Assembly: GCA_003833135.1 (NCBI GenBank) | Contig: QZLH01000012.1 | Span: 15,927 to 79,926, forward strand | Origin: Oehlia diaphana | Taxonomy: Eukaryota; Glomeromycota; Glomeromycetes; Glomerales; Glomeraceae | Reading direction: 5' to 3' | DNA length: 64,000 nt | Shown here: positions 3,330 through 63,880 of the stretch, in pieces | Layout of the letters: each line of letters begins with the position of its first letter | Position numbering within the stretch: the stretch's first letter is position 1 | Program-made: the position numbers and the translations under genes | The notes under the pieces: generated by a model | Database searches by the model: none | Told to the model about the DNA's origin: nothing | What the model saw: the letters and a program-made list of their open reading frames with translations, nothing else

Positions 3330-4381
3330 ATGGATCAGCCTTCCCCTCAGTTGGTTACTCTTCTACAAGGCAAACTTGGACAGTTAATAGGAAAGTCTTC
3401 AGGCTATATTGAAAACTTGCCGGAAGACGTAAAAGCTCGGATCAATAGCTTAAAGTACTATCAAGCTGAACATGCAAAGCTGGAAGCAAAATTTCAAGAA
3501 GAGATCTTGGCACTAGAAAAGAAATATTTAGAATTATACAGACCTTTATATGAAGTACGTTCCAAAATTGTTCGTGGGGAGCGTGAACCAACTGAAGAGG
3601 AAATTCAGGCTGGAGCAAAACTTGATGAGGAAGAGCAAGCAAAAGAGGAGCATATGGTTAGCGAAGAAAATAAAGTACAGGAAATTAATGAACAAGATAA
3701 AGGCATTCCAGAATTCTGGCTTACTGCAATGAAAAATTTAATTTCAATTGCAGAAATTATTACTGATCGTGATGAAGATGCATTAAAGCATTTGGTTGAC
3801 ATACGAATGTCATATCTTGAAAAACCGGGATTCCGACTCGATTTCGAATTTGAAGAGAATCCATATTTTACGAATACTCTCTTAACAAAAACATATTACT
3901 ATCAAGAGGAACCAGGTTATGGAGGTGACTTCGTTTATGATCATGCTGAGGGTACACAAATCGATTGGAAAGATGGAAAAGATCTTACTGTTACAGTGGA
4001 AACGAAAAAACAAAAACATAAAGGTAATTTAATAAATGAATCTCTAATTCTTAATAATTTTAAATCAATTTTAAATTTTTATCCTTAATATTTTTAGGTA
4101 CTAACAAGACTCGTGTAGTAAAAACTACAGTACCAGCCGAGTCATTCTTTCAATTTTTCAGCCCGCCTACTGAGCCAGATGATGACGTTATTGACGACGA
4201 TGATGATAATCTGGATGAACGACTTGAAATGGATTATCAAATTGGAGAAGACATAAAAGAAAAACTTATTCCTCGTGCTGTAGATTGGTACACTGGTAAA
4301 GCATTGAAATATGAAGATATTATTGATGAATATGATGACCCTTTCCTCGTTGGCGATGATGATGATGACGATGATGATGAT

Positions 4382-4413
<32 letters not shown>

Positions 4414-4631
4414 CGATGAGGACGGGGTAAATAATAAATTTATTTAATTTAACATTTAATTCTTCAATTCTCTAATTTTTTCTTTTTCATTAATGTAGGC
4501 CAATGGAAAGGTAGGTAAATATCTTATCACTATACCATTCTGTTTATAAAAAATGTACAATTCGTTTATTTTACCTAATTATTATTTTTAATTAGAACAA
4601 CCAGAATGCAAGCAACATTAAAATCAAGTAG
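3330..4631 (+). CDS. NAP1: Nucleosome assembly protein 1 (NAP family histone chaperone)
   Basis: NAP1 chaperones H2A-H2B and feeds them to chromatin assembly and remodelling. I read four exons: 3330-4023, 4098-4426, 4499-4510 and 4596-4631, with phases 1, 0, 0 and all junctions GT/AG. The protein is 356 residues. Seen in it: a long dimerisation helix early on ([33 protein letters not shown]), the family block [12 protein letters not shown], the [14 protein letters not shown] segment, [30 protein letters not shown](TG)A, and an uninterrupted aspartate run near the C terminus. Length and order fit the family. The third exon is only 12 nt (four codons, ANGK), followed by a short [11 protein letters not shown] tail. 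If the last introns were retained, a stop at 4447 would truncate only the acidic tail. No C-terminal CaaX prenylation box is present. Confidence 0.95.
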
Positions 4632-18800: not shown

Positions 18801-19249
18801 CATCAGGGAATTTTTTGAAGCGCAATCTGTGCAGATCTGCAGGTGACATTTGCCACCATTTCTGCACAGATCTGCAACTTTGCTGGAAGACTTTGAAGGA
18901 GAAAATTTTATGATTTCTGCACAGAATTTCAAAAAAATAAAGTTTTGCGAAAATCTTCAAAAATTAAATTTTGCGAAGTAATTCAAGAATGAAATTCTGT
19001 AAAAATTCATTAAAAAATAAATTACTGTTCACCACAGTCATTATATATTGTATTTTATGTGAGTGTCAAATTATTTAATAAAAGCATTACAAATTGTATG
19101 TACAAATTAATTATTAAACTACACTAATTAACTCCTCTTTTCTATACTACAAATTTACATGTTGTTAATGGTTTGGATATTGTTCCAGTTGGTACAATTC
19201 CAACAAACAATGAAAACCTATAAATAAAAAAAATTTTGAAGTAAGCAGC

Positions 19250-21420
19250 TTCAAACCTATCTGAACCTATAAAAAAGAAAGAACAGTTATTAGCATAAAC
19301 TGTTCATATATTTTAAACGGTTATTAGTAACCGTTCATTAATAAATAAAAAAAAAATAAAAAAGAATAAAAGTTTCGTACTTATAAAACTTTGGAGTTTT
19401 ATTCTTCGGAAGCCTATCGAACCTAAAAAAATAAAGAAAAGAACGGTTATTAGTAACCGTTCATTAATAAAATAAAAAAAAACAAAAAAAAAACAACAGT
19501 TTCGTACTTACGAAACTTTGGATTTTCGTTCTTTGGAAGTCCACTAGACCTAAAAAAATAAAGAAAAGAACGGTTATTAGTAATCGTTCATTAATATAAT
19601 AAAAAAAAACAAAAAAATAAACCAAGATTTGTATATATATTTACGAATCTTAGTTTTTTTCATTCTTTAGAACTCAGAAGCCCCTTCTGAGACGCCGAAC
19701 CTATAAAAAAGAAAGAAAAAGAACGGTTAATAACCGTTCATTAATATTGTAAAAAGTAAACTAAAAAAAATAAACCAAGTTTTTGAACTTACGAAACTTG
19801 GTTGGTTCTATTCTTCAGAGGACACCTAAACAACTGAAACCTATAAAAAAGAGACAAAGAACGATTAATAACCGTTCATATTAAGAAAAAATAAAAAAAA
19901 AAACTCCAAAGAATTCGTACTTACAAATCTTTGGAGTTTTTATACTTTGGAAGCTTACCCAAAAGCTGAACCTAAAAAAAAAAGAAAAGAACGGTAAGCA
20001 ACCGTTTATAATATTAAAAAAAAAGAAATAGAACCAAGATTCGTACTTACTTACAAATTTTGGTTTCTTCCATTCTTCAGAATTCAAAAGTAACCCGAAT
20101 CTAAAAAAGAAGAAAGAATGGTTATTAATAACGGTTCATAATAATATTACAGTAAAAAAAAAAAAATAAAATAAATCAAGATTCGTAATAATTACTTACG
20201 AATCTTGATTTTTTCGGTTATTCAGAAATCAGAAGCCACCTAAACCTAAAAAAAATAAAGAACGGTTATTAATACAGTCAAACCTTGATAGCGAATCCTT
20301 GATATAGTGAATTTTTCAGACAACTATAATAAATTTCCCCTTGCTATAACGAATTAACCAATCAAATCTCTTATAATCTTCACTATAACCCTATAGCGAA
20401 GTTGAGGTCTAGAATCTAGGGTTCGTTATAACAAGGGTTGACTGTAACCATTTGTAATAATATTAAAAAAAAACTAAGATTCATAACCTTAGTTCTCCTT
20501 TTTTCGACCTTCGGAAGTCCACCCAATCCTATAAAAAAAAAGAAGGAACAGTTAGTAAACCATTCAATAATAACAAAAAAGAAAATAAAAAAAAATAAGA
20601 TTCTTACGAATCTTGATTCTCTGTTCACCAAAAGTCCACCAAACCTATAAAAATAAGAAAGGAATGGTTAGTAACCATTCCATAATATTAATAAAACTAA
20701 GATTCGTAATATGGAATATTTACAAAACTTAGTTTTTTCCCGTTCTTCAAAAACTTACCCAGACGCTGAACCTATAAAAAAAAAGAACAGTTATTAGTAA
20801 CCGTTCATTAATAAAATAAAAAAAAAATAAAAAAATAAAAGTTTTGTCGTACTTACGAAACTTTGGGTTTTCGTTCTTTGGAAGCCCACCGGACCTAAAA
20901 AAATAAAGAAAAGAACGGTTATTAGTAACTGTTCATTAATATTTAAAAAAAAATAAAAAAAATAAGTTTCGTCATACTTACGAAACTTTGGTTTTCATTC
21001 TTTGGAAGCCCACTGAACCTAAAAATAAAGAAAAGAATAGTTATTAGTAATCGTTCATTAATATTAAAAAAAATGAAAAAAAAACCAAGATTCGTACTTA
21101 CTTACGAATCTTGGTTTTCCGTTGTTCTTTGGAACTCAGAAGTCTGCCCGAAATCTATTAAATAAAAGAAAAAGAACGGTTAGTAACTGTTTGTTAATAT
21201 TACAAAAAAAAAAAATAAAAATAAAGAACTAAGATTCGTAGTTATGAATCTTAGTTTCCCTGATCTTTGGAAGTCTACCCGAATTCTATAGTCTAACCGG
21301 CGCCAGCATTCTACAAAAAAAACTGAAAAGAAACGTTAATTCATTTCTTAAATTTAAAAATAAAAAAATAAAATTAAAAAAAAAATATAAAATATATGTA
21401 AGTTTCAAAACGAAACTTAC
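19250..21420 (-). repeat. Minus-strand tandem array of about 15 intron-microexon-like units
   Basis: Units of about 115-150 bp, read on the minus strand, have a fixed order: a hairpin GAACGGTTA / CTAA / TAACCGTTC that holds a branch-point-like ACTAAT, then T-rich TTTATTTTTTTAG, then a microexon of about 38-40 nt (GTCTAGTGGACTTCCAAAGA...), then AAAGTTTC|GTAAGTACGAAAC, with the donor in a second palindrome. Clear donor palindromes, in plus coordinates, lie near 19380, 19505, 19790, 19920, 20045, 20190, 20605, 20845, 20965, 21095 and 21400, with decayed ones between. Microexons are mutually similar (TTCCRAAGAAYRAAA). No long ORF links them. Detailed argument in the findings. Confidence 0.85.
20275..20444. 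mobile_element. pogo/Tc1-like MITE, 170 bp, TA target duplication
   Basis: The termini are CAGTCAAACCTTGATAGCGA (left) and CAGTCAACCCTTGTTATAAC (right, reverse complement), with TA on both outer sides (20273-20274 and 20445-20446). A CAGT(C)AAACC-type end with a TA duplication is typical of pogo-like elements. It sits inside one hairpin of the surrounding array. Joining the flanks restores the AACGGTTATTAATAACC-type hairpin seen in neighbouring units. Confidence 0.85.
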
Positions 21421-21421
21421 A

Positions 21422-21598
21422 TTACTTCCAAGAAAAAGAAGCAAAAAGGGGAGAATGAAAGGGAAAGGAAAGGACAAAGGGAAAGAGAAGGACAAAAGGA
21501 AAGGGAAGGATGAAAGAAAAGGGAAGGACGAAAGGGAAGAGGAGGGATGATAGGGGAGGGACAAAGTGGAAGAAGGGAAAAGGAGTTTAAAAAAGATG
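21422..21598. repeat. Polypurine tract, about 175 nt
   Basis: An almost pure A/G strand (AAAGGGAAAGGAAAGGACAA and similar, GGAAGGAYGAAAG repeats) with very few pyrimidines. Such mirror-like purine tracts can form triplex DNA and stall replication. The opposite strand yields a spurious Ser/Phe/Leu-rich 92-codon ORF at 21286-21564. Confidence 0.8.
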
Positions 21599-21866
21599 AT
21601 CCTTTTTTTTATCTTTTTAAACTTTTGATACGCATAACGCGTGATGTTTAATTAGCTGCGAATTCTGCAATTTCGCAGATTACTGCAGAATTTTTTTAAT
21701 AAATCTGTAAAATTGCAAATTTTATAAAAAAACTTCTGCGGTAATTTGCGAAATTGCAAAATTTGCAGAATTTCGCAGAAATGTGTAAAAAAAGTGCAAA
21801 AAAAATGCGGAGAACTGTAAATTTTGCAGTTCTCTGCAGATCTGCACCCTAAAAAATTTCCCGATG

Positions 21867-23782: not shown

Positions 23783-25223
23783 TAGTACTTTACATGAGTC
23801 AGCTTGAGCCAAGCTACAGTCTGGCTTAGTTCAGCTTAAAGATCTGCATCAAGCCAAATCTGAAATGAGCTGAGCCACAAAAATCTTGGCTCAATTTGAT
23901 TCGAGTCAAGCTGAACCATAAAAATCCTGGCTTGAGCCAAGCTAAAGTCAAGCTGACTTAAGCTTTATCATAAAAATATTTTCATAACGTTTTTACTTTA
24001 AATTATTAAAAAAATGTTGCAAAATATTTTTTTAATTAAATTAATGTAAAATATAACGTTTTACAGCATTTTTACATTATATTATTAAAAAAATGTTACG
24101 AAATGTTATTTTTAACTAAATAAATGTTTTCATAACATTTTTACTTTAAATTATTTAAAAAATGTTGCAAAACATTTTTTACTTTTTGTTTTTATATATA
24201 TAGTGCCAAAACTATTTGCTTCAGTATTTTTCCTTTTGATTTTACATGCAGTAATGGGAATTTCCAGTTTCCAATGAAAATTTTACTGGAAACTAGAATC
24301 TGGAACATTGGAATTTTGATTCCAAATTGATTCCAATGATTTCTGGAATCTGGAAATTTGATTCCAATACTTCAAAAACCACTGGAATCAATCTGGAATA
24401 CATGTTTCCAGATTTCAGATTTCAGAAAATGCCAACACTGTTTACATGTAAAAATGCCAAAACTGATAGTTTCAGTATTTTTTTTCAATTTTGCATATAA
24501 AAGTACCAGAATAATTAGTTTCAGTATTTTTTTTTTGATTTACATGTAAAAATGCCAAACTGATAGTTTCAGTATTTTTTTTGATTTTATATGTAAAAAT
24601 GTCAGAATAATTAGTTCTGGTATTTTCTTTTTGAATTTATATGTAAAAACGCTAAAATTATTAATTTTAGCATTTTTTTTCAATTTTACATGTAAAAACG
24701 CTAGAATTATTAGTTTTGGTGTATTTTTTTTGATTTTACATGTAAAAATACCAGAATAATTAGTTCCCATTTTTTTTTGATTTTACATGTAAAAATGCTG
24801 AAACTATTAGTTTTGGCATTTTTTTTTGATTTTACATGTAAAAACACTAGAATTATTAGTTCTGGCAGTTTTTTTTCAATTTTACATGTAAAAATGCCAG
24901 AATTATTAGTTCTGGCATTTTCTTTTGATTTTATGTAAAAACATTAAACTGATAGTTTTGGCATTTTTTTTGATTATACATGTAAAAATGCCAGAATTAT
25001 TAGTTTCAGTAGTTTCTTTTTTTTGTATAATAGCTTGTTTAGCTCATGAGCCAGCTCGAGCTTTTTGAGCTAAATCTGTTACAGGTTTGAGCTTTTTGAG
25101 CTGAGTCTAATAACTGGTTCAAACTCTTTTAAGCTGACTCATGAGCTATTAAACCAATTTAATTATGACTTGGCTTGGCTCAACTTGAAAAGCTTGAACC
25201 AGCTTAGCTCATGTAAAGCACTA
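23783..25223. mobile_element. hAT-like non-autonomous element, 1441 bp, 8-bp target duplication
   Basis: The left terminus is TAGTACTTTACATGAG then TCAGCTTGAGCCAAGCT. The reverse complement of the right terminus is TAGTGCTTTACATGAG then CTAAGCTGGTTCAAGCT. Flanks are TTTAAACA (23775-23782) and TTTAAATA (25224-25231), an 8-bp duplication with one mismatch, as hAT elements make. Subterminal DNA is AGCT/GAGCC-rich. The interior holds no transposase but an array of palindromes (24230-25020) and a block of ATGTTGCAAAACATTTTT-type repeats at 23990-24190. Confidence 0.75.
24420..25020. repeat. Tandem array of double palindromes, about 60-bp period
   Basis: About ten units alternate two palindromes: TTTTACATGTAAAA and AATGCCAGAA / TTATTAG / TTCTGGCATT, joined by poly-T. 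Variants keep the pairing with both arms changed, for example GCTAAAAT..ATTTTAGC at about 24650-24670 against GCCAGAAT..TTCTGGC at 24893-24918. A stop-free minus-strand ORF across part of it (24540-24770) is a consequence of the repeat, not a gene. Confidence 0.85.
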
Positions 25224-41845: not shown

Positions 41846-42563
41846 TCATTTTGGGGCCTGTGTATTAGATTCGAATATATTAGAAGTAACCTTTTGTGGC
41901 GTGTCCAAAAGCCATGTAGAAATTTGTTTAATATTCATTGGATAACCAGTGTTGAAAGTGTTTGACATGTTTAAAAGGTTAACCATATTACTATTTGGTG
42001 AGGGAGTTACAATTCCTAAAGGCCCTGAGAAATTATAACGGAAGGAATCATCTTGTGCAATTTGAAAAAAGTTATTAAGGGATTGTTCGGGAAAATACGG
42101 TGATGCTAGTAAAGGTAGAGCTTCAAATTCTTTTTTTTTTTTTAATATAAAAAAAAAAAAAAATTTATTTATTTATTTTATGTGAAGTGAAAAAAAAAAA
42201 AGGTTATTTTTTTATTTTTTCAGCATTTTGTGAGACCTATATTTTCAAATGTTTTCTCATTCATTACCGTTTGTTGTTCTAGTTGATCACCCGATACAGT
42301 TGTTCCTGCCGTAACGATATGTTGTACAAGGGGGGTAGGCATTATTATCAAGTGTTCTATCGCTTAATAAAAAAAATTTTCTCACAAATGATTTCTATAA
42401 GAGTTAACAAAAACGTGATAAATAGATGATGCTGTAATTGTCAGACAAAAACAACGATTTAAAAAGAGAAAGTGTGTCACGATTGATAAATAAATAACGA
42501 TCTGTAAAAAAAAAATCATAATATATATATATATATATATATTAAATTTCGCATGAGCTACGA

Positions 42564-42597
<34 letters not shown>

Positions 42598-43702
42598 ATA
42601 TTTTTTTTTNNNNNNNNNNNNNNNNNNNNNNNNNNNNNNNNNNNNNNNNNNNNNNNNNNNNNNNNNNNNNNNNNNNNNNNNNNNNNNNNNNNNNNNNNNN
42701 NNNNNNNNNNNNNNNNNNNNNNNNNNNNNNNNNNNNNTTTTTTTATTTTTTTTTTTTTTTTAATATAAAAAAAAAAAAATAATAAATTAAATTAAATTAA
42801 GTAAATAAAAATAGTTAACAAAGATAAAATTTACTTTGCCCGTTCGTAAGACAACCGGGATCGCAAGCAGATGGATCGTCAACAGTTTTCAAATTAGAAG
42901 TATTCCAATAGCAACCACTTTTTTCGCATTGAATTAATTCGTTATTATCATTTTCATTTTTGTTTAAATGAATAAATTGCGAAACATAAGGATTAACGAA
43001 ATTTCTGTTTGAAAATTTTCGTTCTTCAAGTGAAGTGCTAAGATCAGTTGTTAATGCAACAGCCAAACTTGGCGTAGTTTCTGATGTCCTGAACAAATTT
43101 GCACAATTGCTAACAAGGTGCTTTGGAGTTGAATTATGGAGTGATGTCGAAGTATTTATAAGAGGTGAAAGTGTTAAAGAAGAAAGATGCTGACTCATAT
43201 TTTCTGGGCAATAATCTGCAACCAAAGTTAATTTTTTTGATATATTATTTTTTGCGGCATTTTTTGATTCCAACGCATCTCTTTTGACTTTCGCTCTACG
43301 ATTTTGAAACCAAACTTGAATTGCACGTGAGGACATATTTAGTTTTTGAGCTAATTGAGCACGTGTCGTTGCATCAGGTTTTTGTAAATTCTCAAAAATA
43401 CTATTCAATACATTTGTCTCTTCTTCGGTGAGGCGACGGCGACGTTTCACTTGACGATAAAGAGGCGGATAGTGATAAAGATGACCGTTCAAGGCGATGG
43501 ACGATTGTTCAGATGAAGTTACGTTTAAACCAATACTACCTTTTATGTCTTGATTTACAAATTCATGTTGATTTTGATATAATGAAAAATAATGGTGGTT
43601 TTCTCCTGTAAAACTTGGACCATTACTGTTTATATTCATCATTACATCCGTAGAAGCTGGGTCAAAGTTTTGATCTGGGTGAAAAGAAAGTGCACTTATC
43701 AT
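41846..43702 (-). CDS. Homeodomain transcription factor
   Basis: Exon 1 (43702-42835) codes for the homeodomain: RRRRLTEEETNVLNSIFENL, QKPDATTRAQLAQKLNMSSR, AIQVWFQNRRAKVKRD. The third helix WFQNRRAKVKR with Trp, Phe, Asn and Arg is canonical, so it should bind DNA. The rest is Ser/Thr/Asn-rich. A long intron follows that contains the 128-N gap, then exons at about 42358-42240 (HLIIMPTPLVQHIVTAGTTV) and about 42131-41846 (EFEALPLLASPYFPEQSLNN ... QAPK stop). All three join in phase 1, so no coding sequence need be missing in the gap. I infer this from phase agreement; the N gap leaves room for an extra exon. No close family name can be given. Confidence 0.85.
42610..42737. other. Assembly gap, 128 N
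   Basis: A run of N flanked on both sides by long A and T homopolymers (T/A tracts at 42561-42609 and 42738-42780). Its true length is unknown. It lies in the homeobox gene intron. Confidence 0.99.
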
Positions 43703-60447: not shown

Positions 60448-60944
60448 TAGTGTTCCGAAAAAAATCTGATCTGATTCATATCCACAGATCTGATCTGAAA
60501 CAGATCAGATCAGATCAGCTTTTTTATAATTCGTAATCTGATCTGAATCAAAAAAATTTGATCTGTTTCAAATCGAATCAAATCGGATCAGTTATTCATT
60601 CAAATCGGATCAGATTGAATCAGATTTGAACGGATTTGGATTGGATTCAGATCAGATCTGAATCTTAGAAAATAAAAAACATTTTGCGTAATATTTTTTA
60701 TTAAGACAATTATAAACTGTTTTGCAACAGCATTTTTTTAATATCTGATTCAAATCATATTTAGATCAGATCAGTTTTATTCAAATTGGATTCAGACTAA
60801 ATCAAATCAAGTTTATTTTGGATTCAGATCCAATTATTTTTGATCTGAATTCAAATCAGATCAAATTCAATTTTTTTTGATTTGAATTCGGATTGAATCA
60901 GATTCATCTCAAATCTGATCTGATTTGATCTGTTCAGAACACTA
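60448..60944. mobile_element. TIR element filled with GATCTGAT-type simple repeat, 497 bp
   Basis: The left terminus is TAGTGTTCCGAAAAAAATCT then GATCTGATTC. The right one, in reverse complement, is TAGTGTTCTGAACAGATCAA then ATCAGATCAGATT. The interior is almost entirely GATCTGATC/AATCAGATC-type repeat. The TAGTG terminus recalls the element at 23783-25223; I could not find an 8-bp duplication here. Confidence 0.65.
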
Positions 60945-60945
60945 A

Positions 60946-63200
60946 AGAAAAGAGTAAGTTTTGAAGTGTTTCGCTTTAAAACTTTTAAAAAATAATTTTT
61001 TTTTTCATTTTTTTTATAAGAAAACGCTAATATTTTCTCTATTTTTTTGTAGGTTTCTTTTTGAAAAATGAGAAAAGGGTAAGTTTTGAAGCATTTTTCT
61101 TTGAAACTTTCTAAAAAAAAAATTTTTTTTATAAGAAAATGTTTCCTTTATTTTTTTTAGGTCTCTTGGGTATTTTTAGTTTAGAAAACTGGAAAATGAA
61201 AAGGTGAGTTTTGAAGTGTTTGTTTTGAAACTTTTAAAAATTTAATTTTTTTATTATTTTAACAAAATGTGATTAACATTTCCTTTTTTTTTTAGGGTTG
61301 CGGCTTTCTGGATAGCTCATGGATGGGAATTTTGAAGGTAAACCTTCAAAATTTTTTAATTGTTTCTCTTTAATGAAATGTGTTTAATGTTTTAATTTTT
61401 TATTTTTTAGAACTACGACCTTCTGGATGATTTACAGACAGGTAAATTTTTTTTTTTAATTTATTTTAATGAAACATAACTAACATTTTGTTTTTTTTTC
61501 TTTTTAGGTCTGCAGATTTCTGGAGAGTTTTCTAAACAGAATTTCAAAGGTAAATATAGTTGTTTCCAAAATTCAATTGGCAAATCCAAAATCTGAAATT
61601 CCAAAATTGTAATTAATTACATAATTATGTATTTAATTACATATTACGAAATTAATTACGTACTCTGAAATTCCGAAATTTGCATAATAGTGCAAAATTC
61701 TGAATATCTCGTGATTTAGTAATCCGACTTTGATAATCTTACTATTATTCGATTCATTTCATAGAGGCGAATCTAATAATATGTGTTTCATTTCTGTAGT
61801 ATCAATATTTATGGAGTTAATTTGCTATGAACATTAATGATTTTTGGTATCAGAGCAAGATCTAGTGATTGAATTTAAATGAATTTACCACCATTCGATT
61901 CATCTTGATAAGATGATTCTAATGGTGGTAAGATTATCTTTTTAGCATTAAAATTAGCAGATTTATTATGCTATAAATATTTCTAAATTAAGGATAATTC
62001 TGGCCAAATATTTTCATAATACGTAATTAATTATGAAGTCTGAAATTAATTACGAAATATGGAATTTTTCTGGCAAATTATTTAATAATTACAGAATTAC
62101 ATAATTACGTATTTCCATAATACTAAAATAATTTTGAATACAAGTATAAAGATAAAACTTTGAAATCTCTTCATTTTTTTTATTTTAGAAAAATGTTAAC
62201 TAATGTTTCTTTTTTTTCATTTTGTAGATTTATGGGTTTTTAGGTATAATGATGAGTTTTGCAACATTCATTGCAAAACTTTATTTTTTTATTTTAAAGA
62301 AACGTTAATTAATATTTCTTTCTTTTTTATTTTGTAGGTTTATGAGTTTTCAGGTATAATGGTGAATTTGCATTATCCATTGCAAAATTTTATTTTTTTT
62401 ATTTTAAAGAAACGTTAATTAACATTTCTTTCTTTTTCTTTTTGTAGGTTTATGGATTTTTGATAGATAAAATGATGGTAAGTTTTACAACAAAATGTTG
62501 CAAAATTTTAATATTTTTTTTATTATTAAAGAAACATAACTAATGTTTCTTTTTTTCATTTTGTAGGTTTACAGATTTTTAGTAGATAAAATAATGGTAA
62601 GTTTCACAATGAAATGTTGCAAAACTTTGATTTTTTTTTATTATTAAAAAACGTGATTAACATTTTTTTTTATTTTGTAGGTTTACGGATTTTTAGTAGA
62701 TAAAATAATGGTAAATTTCACAATGAAATATTGCGAAACTTTATTTTTTTATTATCAAAGAAATAATGCTAACATTTCTTTTTTTCTTTTTTTGTAGATA
62801 TCAGACTTTGGGGTAGAATGGTAAGGTTTGCAACAAATGTTGCAAAACTTTATTTTTTTAATTTTTATTTTTTAAAAAACATTCTAACTGAACATTTTTC
62901 TTTTTTTTGTAGGTTCAGCCAAATTTTGGAACTTGGAACTTTGAAAAAATGGTAAATTTCGTATATTTACAAAACTTCTGTTTTTTTTATTTTTCTTTTA
63001 AAAATCTATAGATTTCAAAATTTGGATTGGATCATTAGTAAGTTTCGTATATTTGCAAAATTTTTGTATTTTCTTTATTGAAATGTTTTGCTAACATTCC
63101 ATATTTCTTTTATTATAGACTTCAGGATTTTGGGTTAAAGACTGATAAGTTTTGTACCATTTCGTTATGAAACTTTCCTAATTTTATTTGAAATATATTT
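60946..63200 (+). repeat. Plus-strand tandem array of intron-microexon-like units
   Basis: Units of 110-119 bp. Acceptor-like TTTTAG/TTTGTAG ends lie at 61052, 61160, 61295, 61410, 61507, then 62227, 62337, 62447, 62566, 62680, 62797, 62912 and 63119. The microexons are 23-43 nt, for example GTTTACGGATTTTTAGTAGA then TAAAATAATG at 62681-62710, and each ends at GTAAGT/GTAAAT/GTGAGT in most units. CTAAC or TTAAC or CTAAT precedes a T-rich tract in each. Between 61552 and 62200 lies an unrelated stretch with ATTACGTA-type repeats. See findings. Confidence 0.8.
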
Positions 63201-63880
63201 TAATGTTTCATTTTTTCTTATTTATAAGTTTCGGATGAGATCTTTAGAATATTGGATCGATCTGATCGTAAGTTTTATTATTATGAAAATTTTATTCTTT
63301 GAGGTTATTTTTTTAATTTGAAACTTCATTTTTTTACATTAGTAATAATAGTAGCAATGTATTAGTAGTTATGTATTATAATTGTCAAAATCACATTTCC
63401 ATCTTGTTATAGTTATATCACCAGGAACGCTATGTTAACAGAATTTTAGTACATTGATCGCTTAAAAATTCACAGCAATCCAATTATAACAAAAGAAATT
63501 AAATTTTTATAATTTTACATTAGATAATTTATTTGTATTATACTGTATTTTATAAATTATATCGGCTGATTGGAAAAATTAGGCCTGATTTTGTGTCACT
63601 AAATTTTATTATGTGTAACACAAATCATAAGATCTAGTGGTTTAAAATTTTTGTTAATCCCTAAAACTCCATTCTATTTTTATGAACACCCCGAATAAAA
63701 AAAACTTTAATATGTAAAACACTAAGGAACCCATCAATTAAGCAAGGAACTCATCAATAAATTTCGAGTAAGTAACCAGAAGAAAAATCAATATAGTTGC
63801 TTTTTATTTTTAAAAACGCGTTAATTTTATAAATATTTCACTTAAGAAACTTTCATTTTTATATTTTTTATAGCAACATT
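63201..63880. other. AT-rich sequence, no gene seen
   Basis: The first part may be the decayed tail of the array. No other structure recognised. 63700-63760 contains TAAGGAACCCATCAATTAAG and AAGGAACTCATCAATAAATT, a short direct repeat. Confidence 0.45.

Follow-up and report, generated by a model that had tools for sequence, protein, structure and literature searches.

A tandem array of intron-like units with hairpin-borne splice signals inside a probably non-autonomous DNA transposon of Oehlia diaphana

Features of the window

The window analysed here is a 64,000-nucleotide stretch of the Oehlia diaphana genome (GCA_003833135.1, contig QZLH01000012.1, positions 15,927 to 79,926 of the forward strand). 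The host has genes of the CHD1, DEAD-box, homeodomain and NAP types. The NAP-family gene carries a GAT-type microsatellite in its acidic C-terminal part (4354-4424), where it encodes poly-Asp. A tandem array at 321-790 (period 116, 4.1 copies, 92% matches) is by eye unlike the intron arrays described below, and the minus strand of 42382-42759 contains masked letters that translate to X. The features of main concern are a complete transposon copy, its internal array and a second array of the same layout (Table 1).

Table 1. Features of the two intron-like arrays and of the transposon copy (window positions)
Feature	Position	Strand	Remarks
Whole transposon copy, first family (F1), 3.07 kb	18801..21866	minus	inverted ends CATCRGGAAATTTTTT...; 2-bp target duplication TT; sharp homology ends
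Left terminal inverted repeat	21847..21866	minus	0 mismatches to end pattern
CT-rich tract directly upstream of first donor	21431..21586	minus	putatively promoter-like, by position
First intron	21311..21420	minus	donor in stem GTAAGTTTCG TTTT GAAACTTAC, branch hairpin, TTTTTTTTGTAG; F2-like type
Array of 14 exon-plus-intron units	19267..21310	minus	unit table, intron finder, covariance model matches
MITE-like insert, 170 nt	20275..20444	minus	ends CAGTCAA...TTGACTG, TA flanks; interrupts unit 7
Short unit remnant	19218..19266	minus	ends TTTATAG
Putative last exon and tail	18821..19217	minus	AATAAA in consensus of this part; role presumed
Right terminal inverted repeat	18801..18820	plus	2 mismatches to end pattern
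Second array, second family (F2)	60941..63320	plus	same layout, other stems; interrupted by other DNA at ~61555-62148

Layout of the array and its units

Splitting the minus strand of 19250-21420 at pyrimidine-rich AG sites resolved the array region into a first intron, 14 units and a remnant. For the first intron the finder chose an earlier AG in the window copy, and the acceptor given in Table 1 is that of the consensus. A typical unit runs from the exon through a donor hairpin, a T/A-rich spacer, a branch hairpin and a T-rich or pyrimidine tract to TAG. The donor hairpins are of the type AAGTTTC GTAAGT AC GAAACTT (in loop form AAGTTTC-GTAAGTAC-GAAACTT), and the branch hairpins are of the type GAACGGTTA CTAA TAACCGTTC, which presents a branch-like CTAAT. 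Exons have a GC content of 0.467 versus 0.212 for introns.

The initial annotation of this DNA, made from the sequence alone, had described about 15 minus-strand units of 115-150 bp, each an intron plus a microexon of 38-40 nt with its splice signals in hairpins. The array is real, with unit lengths of 116-156 nt and a single exception of 283 nt that holds the MITE-like insert, but the exon estimate was too narrow, the window copy having exons of 37-65 nt. Its statement that both core signals are kept in nearly every unit applies to the donor GT in 11 of the 14 units but fails in units 1, 7 and 14, from which the GT is gone. Signal order, strand, spacing and the difference in GC support the composition of the unit, as does the existence of a second family of like layout. 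Exon lengths repeat position by position from copy to copy and the units are unlike one another by position; the recurrence of the same positions across copies within one transposon bears out the view that this is more than an ordinary satellite. Both the transposon around the array and the second array in the window were missing from that account.

The array lies within a transposon

The ends of the F1 element were read from a blastn comparison of its 8-kb surroundings with 20 loci of the same genome, fetched around array matches. The inverted repeats have the form CATCGGGAAATTTTTT... at one end and ...AAATTTCCCGATG at the other, with variants. Two matches to the end pattern occur in the window (chance mean 0.10 in 100 shuffles, of which 2 had at least two matches), and 179 (99 + 80) occur genome-wide at up to one mismatch versus 0 for a reversed control. 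Among the F1 copies with both ends in view, to which the count was confined by leaving out one-ended loci, 8 of 10 have matching 2-bp flanks (window TT, L032 CT, L034 GA, L039 AT, L041 TA, L044 TC, L046 TG and L048 AA), and the flanks of L033 and L040 do not match. With inverted ends and a target duplication of constant 2-bp length, the F1 element has the anatomy of a non-autonomous TIR DNA transposon. Its interior runs from a CT-rich tract, found at the equivalent place in the F1 consensus and in the F2 copies L010, L013 and L020, through about 15 introns separated by GC-rich exons of 36-65 nt, to a tail with AATAAA. The introns of the F1 consensus are 77-113 nt long, with a branch-to-AG distance of 23-28 nt.

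A query with the array gave 234 matches in the 108.8 Mb of assembled genome, on more than 30 contigs among the matches listed (a lower bound), most of which by eye fall together in arrays. Among the matches listed, the end CATCAGGAAATTTTTTTAGG occurs in no fewer than eight inverted pairs spaced ~500 bp apart, indicating that shorter (MITE) relatives exist. No transposase was seen within the F1 element. By the length of its duplication only, the element is CACTA/CMC-Plavaka-like; its ends begin with CATC, unlike the CACT of CACTA elements. Plavaka, the sole transposase family searched, was considered as an autonomous partner and set aside: it gave 24 genome matches, and of two loci read with 1.5 kb flanks one has no end-like site and the other a single site at 2 mismatches, so that a partnership was not shown.

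A second family shares the layout

TRF reported a further array at 62169-62791, part of the longer F2 array listed in Table 1. In it the intron finder places 10 hairpin introns on the forward strand and 0 on the reverse, the covariance model described below matches at 61415, 62251, 62487, 62596 and 62820, and a search with part of the array as query gave 81 matches in the genome. The ends of the window F2 copy are not in view and the end data come from two other copies, L020 and L015, which are bounded by CATCAGGAAGTTTG / CATCAGCAAGTTTA and matching right ends, measure 2746 and 2873 bp, and are flanked in both cases by 2-bp target duplications (GA and TA, respectively). These ends resemble those of F1; past the first 10-14 bases the outer DNA is by eye unlike F1. 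The interior order, from CT-rich tract to intron array to tail, is as in F1, and the introns have a median length of 87 nt and a branch-to-AG distance of 26 nt.

Both unit types occur within one array in L019, L021, L024 and L026, and the two arrays are therefore related cargo. GTAAGT, ACTAAY and T-tract TAG|GT are common to F1 and F2 despite different stems and subterminal DNA, in a comparison anchored at donor, branch and acceptor that took 15 F1 consensus introns and 103 of 112 F2 introns, the longer ones being dropped; because the arrays are related, these shared words are not independent. L019 and L026 also have runs of branch-type hairpins (GGAACGTTGGCTAACGTTCC type), lacking donors, upstream of the first array exon.

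Splice-like signals are ordered and strand-specific

The units have a U2-type layout, with GT donor, YTNAY branch, pyrimidine tract and AG in the right order and at intron-like spacing. The initial annotation had reasoned that splice-like words at equal frequency in shuffled copies would speak against its reading. In the window array GTAAGT occurs 12 times forward and once in reverse (mean 0.76, maximum 4 in 200 shuffles) and ACTAAY 9 times forward and 0 in reverse (mean 1.5, maximum 5). Two further words stay within the range of the same number of shuffles: TT[TA]TAG, for the acceptor, with 17 occurrences forward and 0 in reverse (shuffle mean 8.4, maximum 18), and YTAAY, for the branch in its loose form, with 31 forward and 16 in reverse (shuffle mean 26.8, maximum 41). 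Its expectation is thus borne out for GTAAGT, for ACTAAY and for the signals combined in order, but not for the acceptor and loose branch words.

The combination was measured with an intron finder that demands intron-like spacing, a GT[AG]A donor in a hairpin, and YTRAY in a hairpin ≤45 nt from a pyrimidine-rich AG; GTAAG and CTAA earn extra score. Since GTRA, YTRAY, the pyrimidine-rich AG and the hairpins are demanded, those letters appear in the output partly by construction; the contrasts of order, strand and shuffling are not built in, and neither are the outer letters, the T preceding AG and the G that follows it. A stricter first version gave 5, 3, 4 and 8 introns in four arrays, after which the scoring was relaxed and the controls were rerun alike. 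In its final form the finder returned 10 introns forward and 0 in reverse from the window array (20 shuffles: mean 0.6, maximum 2), 15 and 0 from the F1 consensus (20 shuffles: mean 0.5, maximum 2), and 10, 10, 13, 12 and 8 forward with 0 in reverse from five F2 loci (shuffle means 0.2-0.55, maxima 1-3). From 22 kb of host-gene DNA it returned 1 forward (mean 1.0 in 2 shuffles). Across 21 whole F1 loci including flanks there were 214 forward and 22 reverse finds, the latter in 9 of the loci; two of these 9, L041 and L042, carry opposite-strand arrays. The ordered, one-strand combination of donor, branch and AG exceeds chance.

Host introns were taken from ORF breaks beside recognised domains (NAP, CHD1 and DEAD box), and in four such stretches no two-hairpin intron was found with the finder at lower thresholds. 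A covariance model built on 14 F1 consensus introns, all 15 except the F2-like first, also matches F2 introns (E about 1e-4 to 0.1). In the 64-kb window it has 21 matches (E up to 0.1), all inside the two arrays and two of them opposite to the F1 strand. Rfam at gathering scores gave no match within the window.

Hairpins vary in position and persist in a young copy

In F1 units the donor stem encloses the donor; in the first F1 intron and in most F2 units it lies at the donor or follows it. Three variants of the donor stem (GATTC/GAATC, GTTTC/GAAAC and AGGTT/AACCT) co-vary by eye in 14 of 15 exon-bearing F1 consensus units, the remaining unit having discordant arms. In a swapped-arm pairing test, which is partly circular and is given little weight here, own arms scored 0.89-0.99 versus 0.38-0.51 for swapped arms. 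The copy L026, which holds the same array as L025, is little decayed and has near-perfect hairpins; its CpG observed/expected ratio, measured on L025 (no masked letters), is 2.35. A 989-nt piece of this young copy folds at -327 kcal/mol versus -215 ± 6.6 for 20 shuffles (z = -17), and the drawn fold places several donors and branch sites at hairpin tips, with some exon parts pairing over long range. Five exons folded alone did no better than shuffles (z -0.86 to 0.64). Donors buried in stems could reduce splicing.

Decay of inserted copies

In 21 F1 copies or fragments, scored over gap-free cells alone, 168 of 235 unit copies retain an intact donor GT, 215 of 235 the branch motif and 195 of 240 the AG. 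Outside CpG, G has diverged to much the same extent at donors (0.176), acceptors (0.182) and in exons (0.1755); the divergence of A is lower at donors (0.034) and branch sites (0.029) than in exons (0.055), and is 0.035 in branch stems. Selection within copies at splice sites was considered on these figures and not adopted, G sites decaying as exon G does and A sites somewhat less, which is proof neither way. The splice sites of inserted copies show little or no protection, so strong selection would be possible only on the lineage from which the copies derive, and the donor counts likewise imply that if splicing was selected for, it was chiefly in active elements. With the joined exons as query, no processed cDNA copy was seen among the matches listed of 237, each of which spans about one exon (≤67 nt).

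Alternative explanations

The relic of an exon-rich gene suggested in the initial annotation finds an echo in the young copy L026, where a single frame of 138 codons stays open through all 11 joined exons, its stop lying in the last exon (p 0.028 from 500 dinucleotide shuffles, p 0.044 from random phases), a feature that decay of the consensus had hidden from a first verdict, since withdrawn, of non-coding exons with stops in all frames. It would fit a protein-coding microexon gene, captured by or native to the transposon, with every microexon contributing a single short basic repeat and with most copies being pseudogenes, as would the F1 consensus frame whose peptides are alike by eye, which has the fewest stops (3 versus 8 and 6). 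Against such a gene stands the lack of a codon-usage signal: the codon LLR is 2.5 for the L026 open frame, -8.8 for the F1 frame that matches it and at most 2.8 in any, compared with 3.8 ± 4.8 for L026 shuffles and 32-65 for 450-nt host pieces, which come from training exons, and GC is nearly flat across the codon positions of the joined exons. Stop density in individual F1 copies is equal among phases (0.046 per codon in the 'coding' phase versus 0.051 and 0.046), F2 exon lengths (<75 nt) are spread evenly over the mod-3 classes (22, 23 and 21 of 66 in classes 0, 1 and 2), and look-alike exons of F1 and L026 differ by non-multiples of 3, so that one and the same motif falls into each of the three frames in different units. 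Pfam returned no match to the L026 peptide at E up to 0.01. The exons look non-coding, the coding reading being the less likely, and we regard a protein-coding gene as improbable.

Equally improbable, in our judgement, is a palindromic minisatellite within the transposon, whose hairpins act in DNA or RNA as cruciforms, transposase binding sites or dsRNA and whose splice-like words are incidental, inherited from one ancestral unit. Template-switch correction can keep quasi-palindromes perfect in AT-rich DNA, and other non-autonomous transposons also have internal tandem repeats. The donor-less hairpins upstream of the array in L019 and L026 agree with this explanation, as does the ease with which shuffles reach the loose branch and acceptor words. 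What it leaves unexplained is the fixed order of donor, branch, tract and AG on one strand with a narrow branch-to-AG distance, the alternation of GC-rich exons with T-rich introns, and a donor that stays constant while its stem shifts from downstream (most F2 introns and the first F1 intron) to around it (F1); the unremarkable folding of the exons also argues against it. The many redundant donors and acceptors in a single orientation might instead allow the whole element to be spliced out of host transcripts when inserted sense in a gene, or to titrate splicing factors, as the initial annotation had proposed. We consider this very unlikely: the AT-rich stretch around the window copy has no long open frame beyond the element, which moreover has a tail of its own, and microexons would stay behind.

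A proposed intron-array RNA gene as transposon cargo

With confidence little better than even, we favour a non-autonomous cut-and-paste fungal DNA transposon that has the array for its internal transcription unit and so carries an intron-array RNA gene as cargo. Transcription would start at the CT-rich tract and run across the ~15 short introns, with the microexons between them, to the tail with its poly(A)-like signal. In every intron the donor lies atop or inside one local hairpin and the branch site, 23-28 nt ahead of the acceptor in the F1 consensus, lies in another, so the spliceosome may meet the signals as hairpin tips within an otherwise T-rich RNA. To judge from the layout of its signals, the RNA of the element, if made, is probably spliced many times over, which would reduce the array of ~2.1 kb to a mostly non-coding RNA of ~0.7 kb. 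Splicing competence may be kept in active (master) elements, plausibly as the spliced RNA would be exported or less silenced, with copies decaying after insertion. More tentatively, and in our view with something over one chance in three, intron number and hairpins rather than a protein could be what is selected, in a spliceosome-dependent class of transposons comprising at least two families with different outer DNA, each bearing at least 10 tandem hairpin-displayed introns and either yielding an RNA that resembles mRNA in being spliced, exported and protected against silencing, or serving as an intron nursery for the spread of hairpin introns.

Comparison with known systems

Non-autonomous TIR transposons and MITEs resemble these elements in their inverted ends, 2-bp duplication, dispersed copies and lack of a visible transposase; they differ in that here two families of unlike subterminal DNA carry an intron array as cargo, and the search for an autonomous partner, which covered Plavaka, found none. 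According to the cited portions of the respective papers, fungal introner-like elements and symmetrical sister stwintrons are proliferating U2-type introns with hairpin structure (PMC8469720, PMC4457414), and those of Hypoxylon often leave the donor G, the branch A and the acceptor G unpaired in the predicted hairpin and are without flanking duplications (PMC8469720). As portrayed there, these are single introns in unrelated genes, whereas the present ones stand in tandem within a TIR transposon and have two local hairpins each. Introners derived from DNA transposons have inverted ends and target duplications; in the part of that paper cited, the element becomes one intron, with splice sites in some families coming from the duplication or insertion site (PMC9860276), unlike the many complete introns seen here.

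Among genes with repeated short units, SP7-like effectors of Glomeromycotina are described in the cited part of PMC11333574 as multi-copy, with imperfect hydrophilic repeats and a conserved intron before the first repeat, a likeness provided that the frame found here is coding. That part mentions no intron between repeats, whereas here an intron follows each unit, and the SP7-like motif Y[KR]Rx[AP]x[AP] is by eye absent from the L026 peptide, the one peptide inspected. With both intron layout and motif differing, identity with an SP7-like effector was rejected. The bicycle genes of aphids likewise have many tiny internal exons and scattered members, and by the cited account nearly all their internal exons are coding and of one phase (PMC9168663); the arrays here have mixed phases and no codon signal. 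The cited portions of PMC11333574, PMC9860276, PMC4457414, PMC8469720, PMC8786786 and PMC9168663 contain no description of intron arrays inside transposons, from which we do not claim that none is in print.

Should the units splice, they would constitute a mobile element bearing ten or more complete tandem introns. The arrays would then offer a natural series of variants, with stems changing and signals constant, in which the effect on splicing of displaying donor and branch in hairpins could be tested, and would tie the amplification of introns to the survival of transposons and to the birth of new introns within one genome.

A separate satellite of period 49 lies at 24441-25006 of the window. 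Its unit consensus is without donor or acceptor, and on the minus strand it forms a hairpin, AATGCCA-AAACTAATAATTC-TGGCATT, whose loop contains a branch-like ACTAAT.
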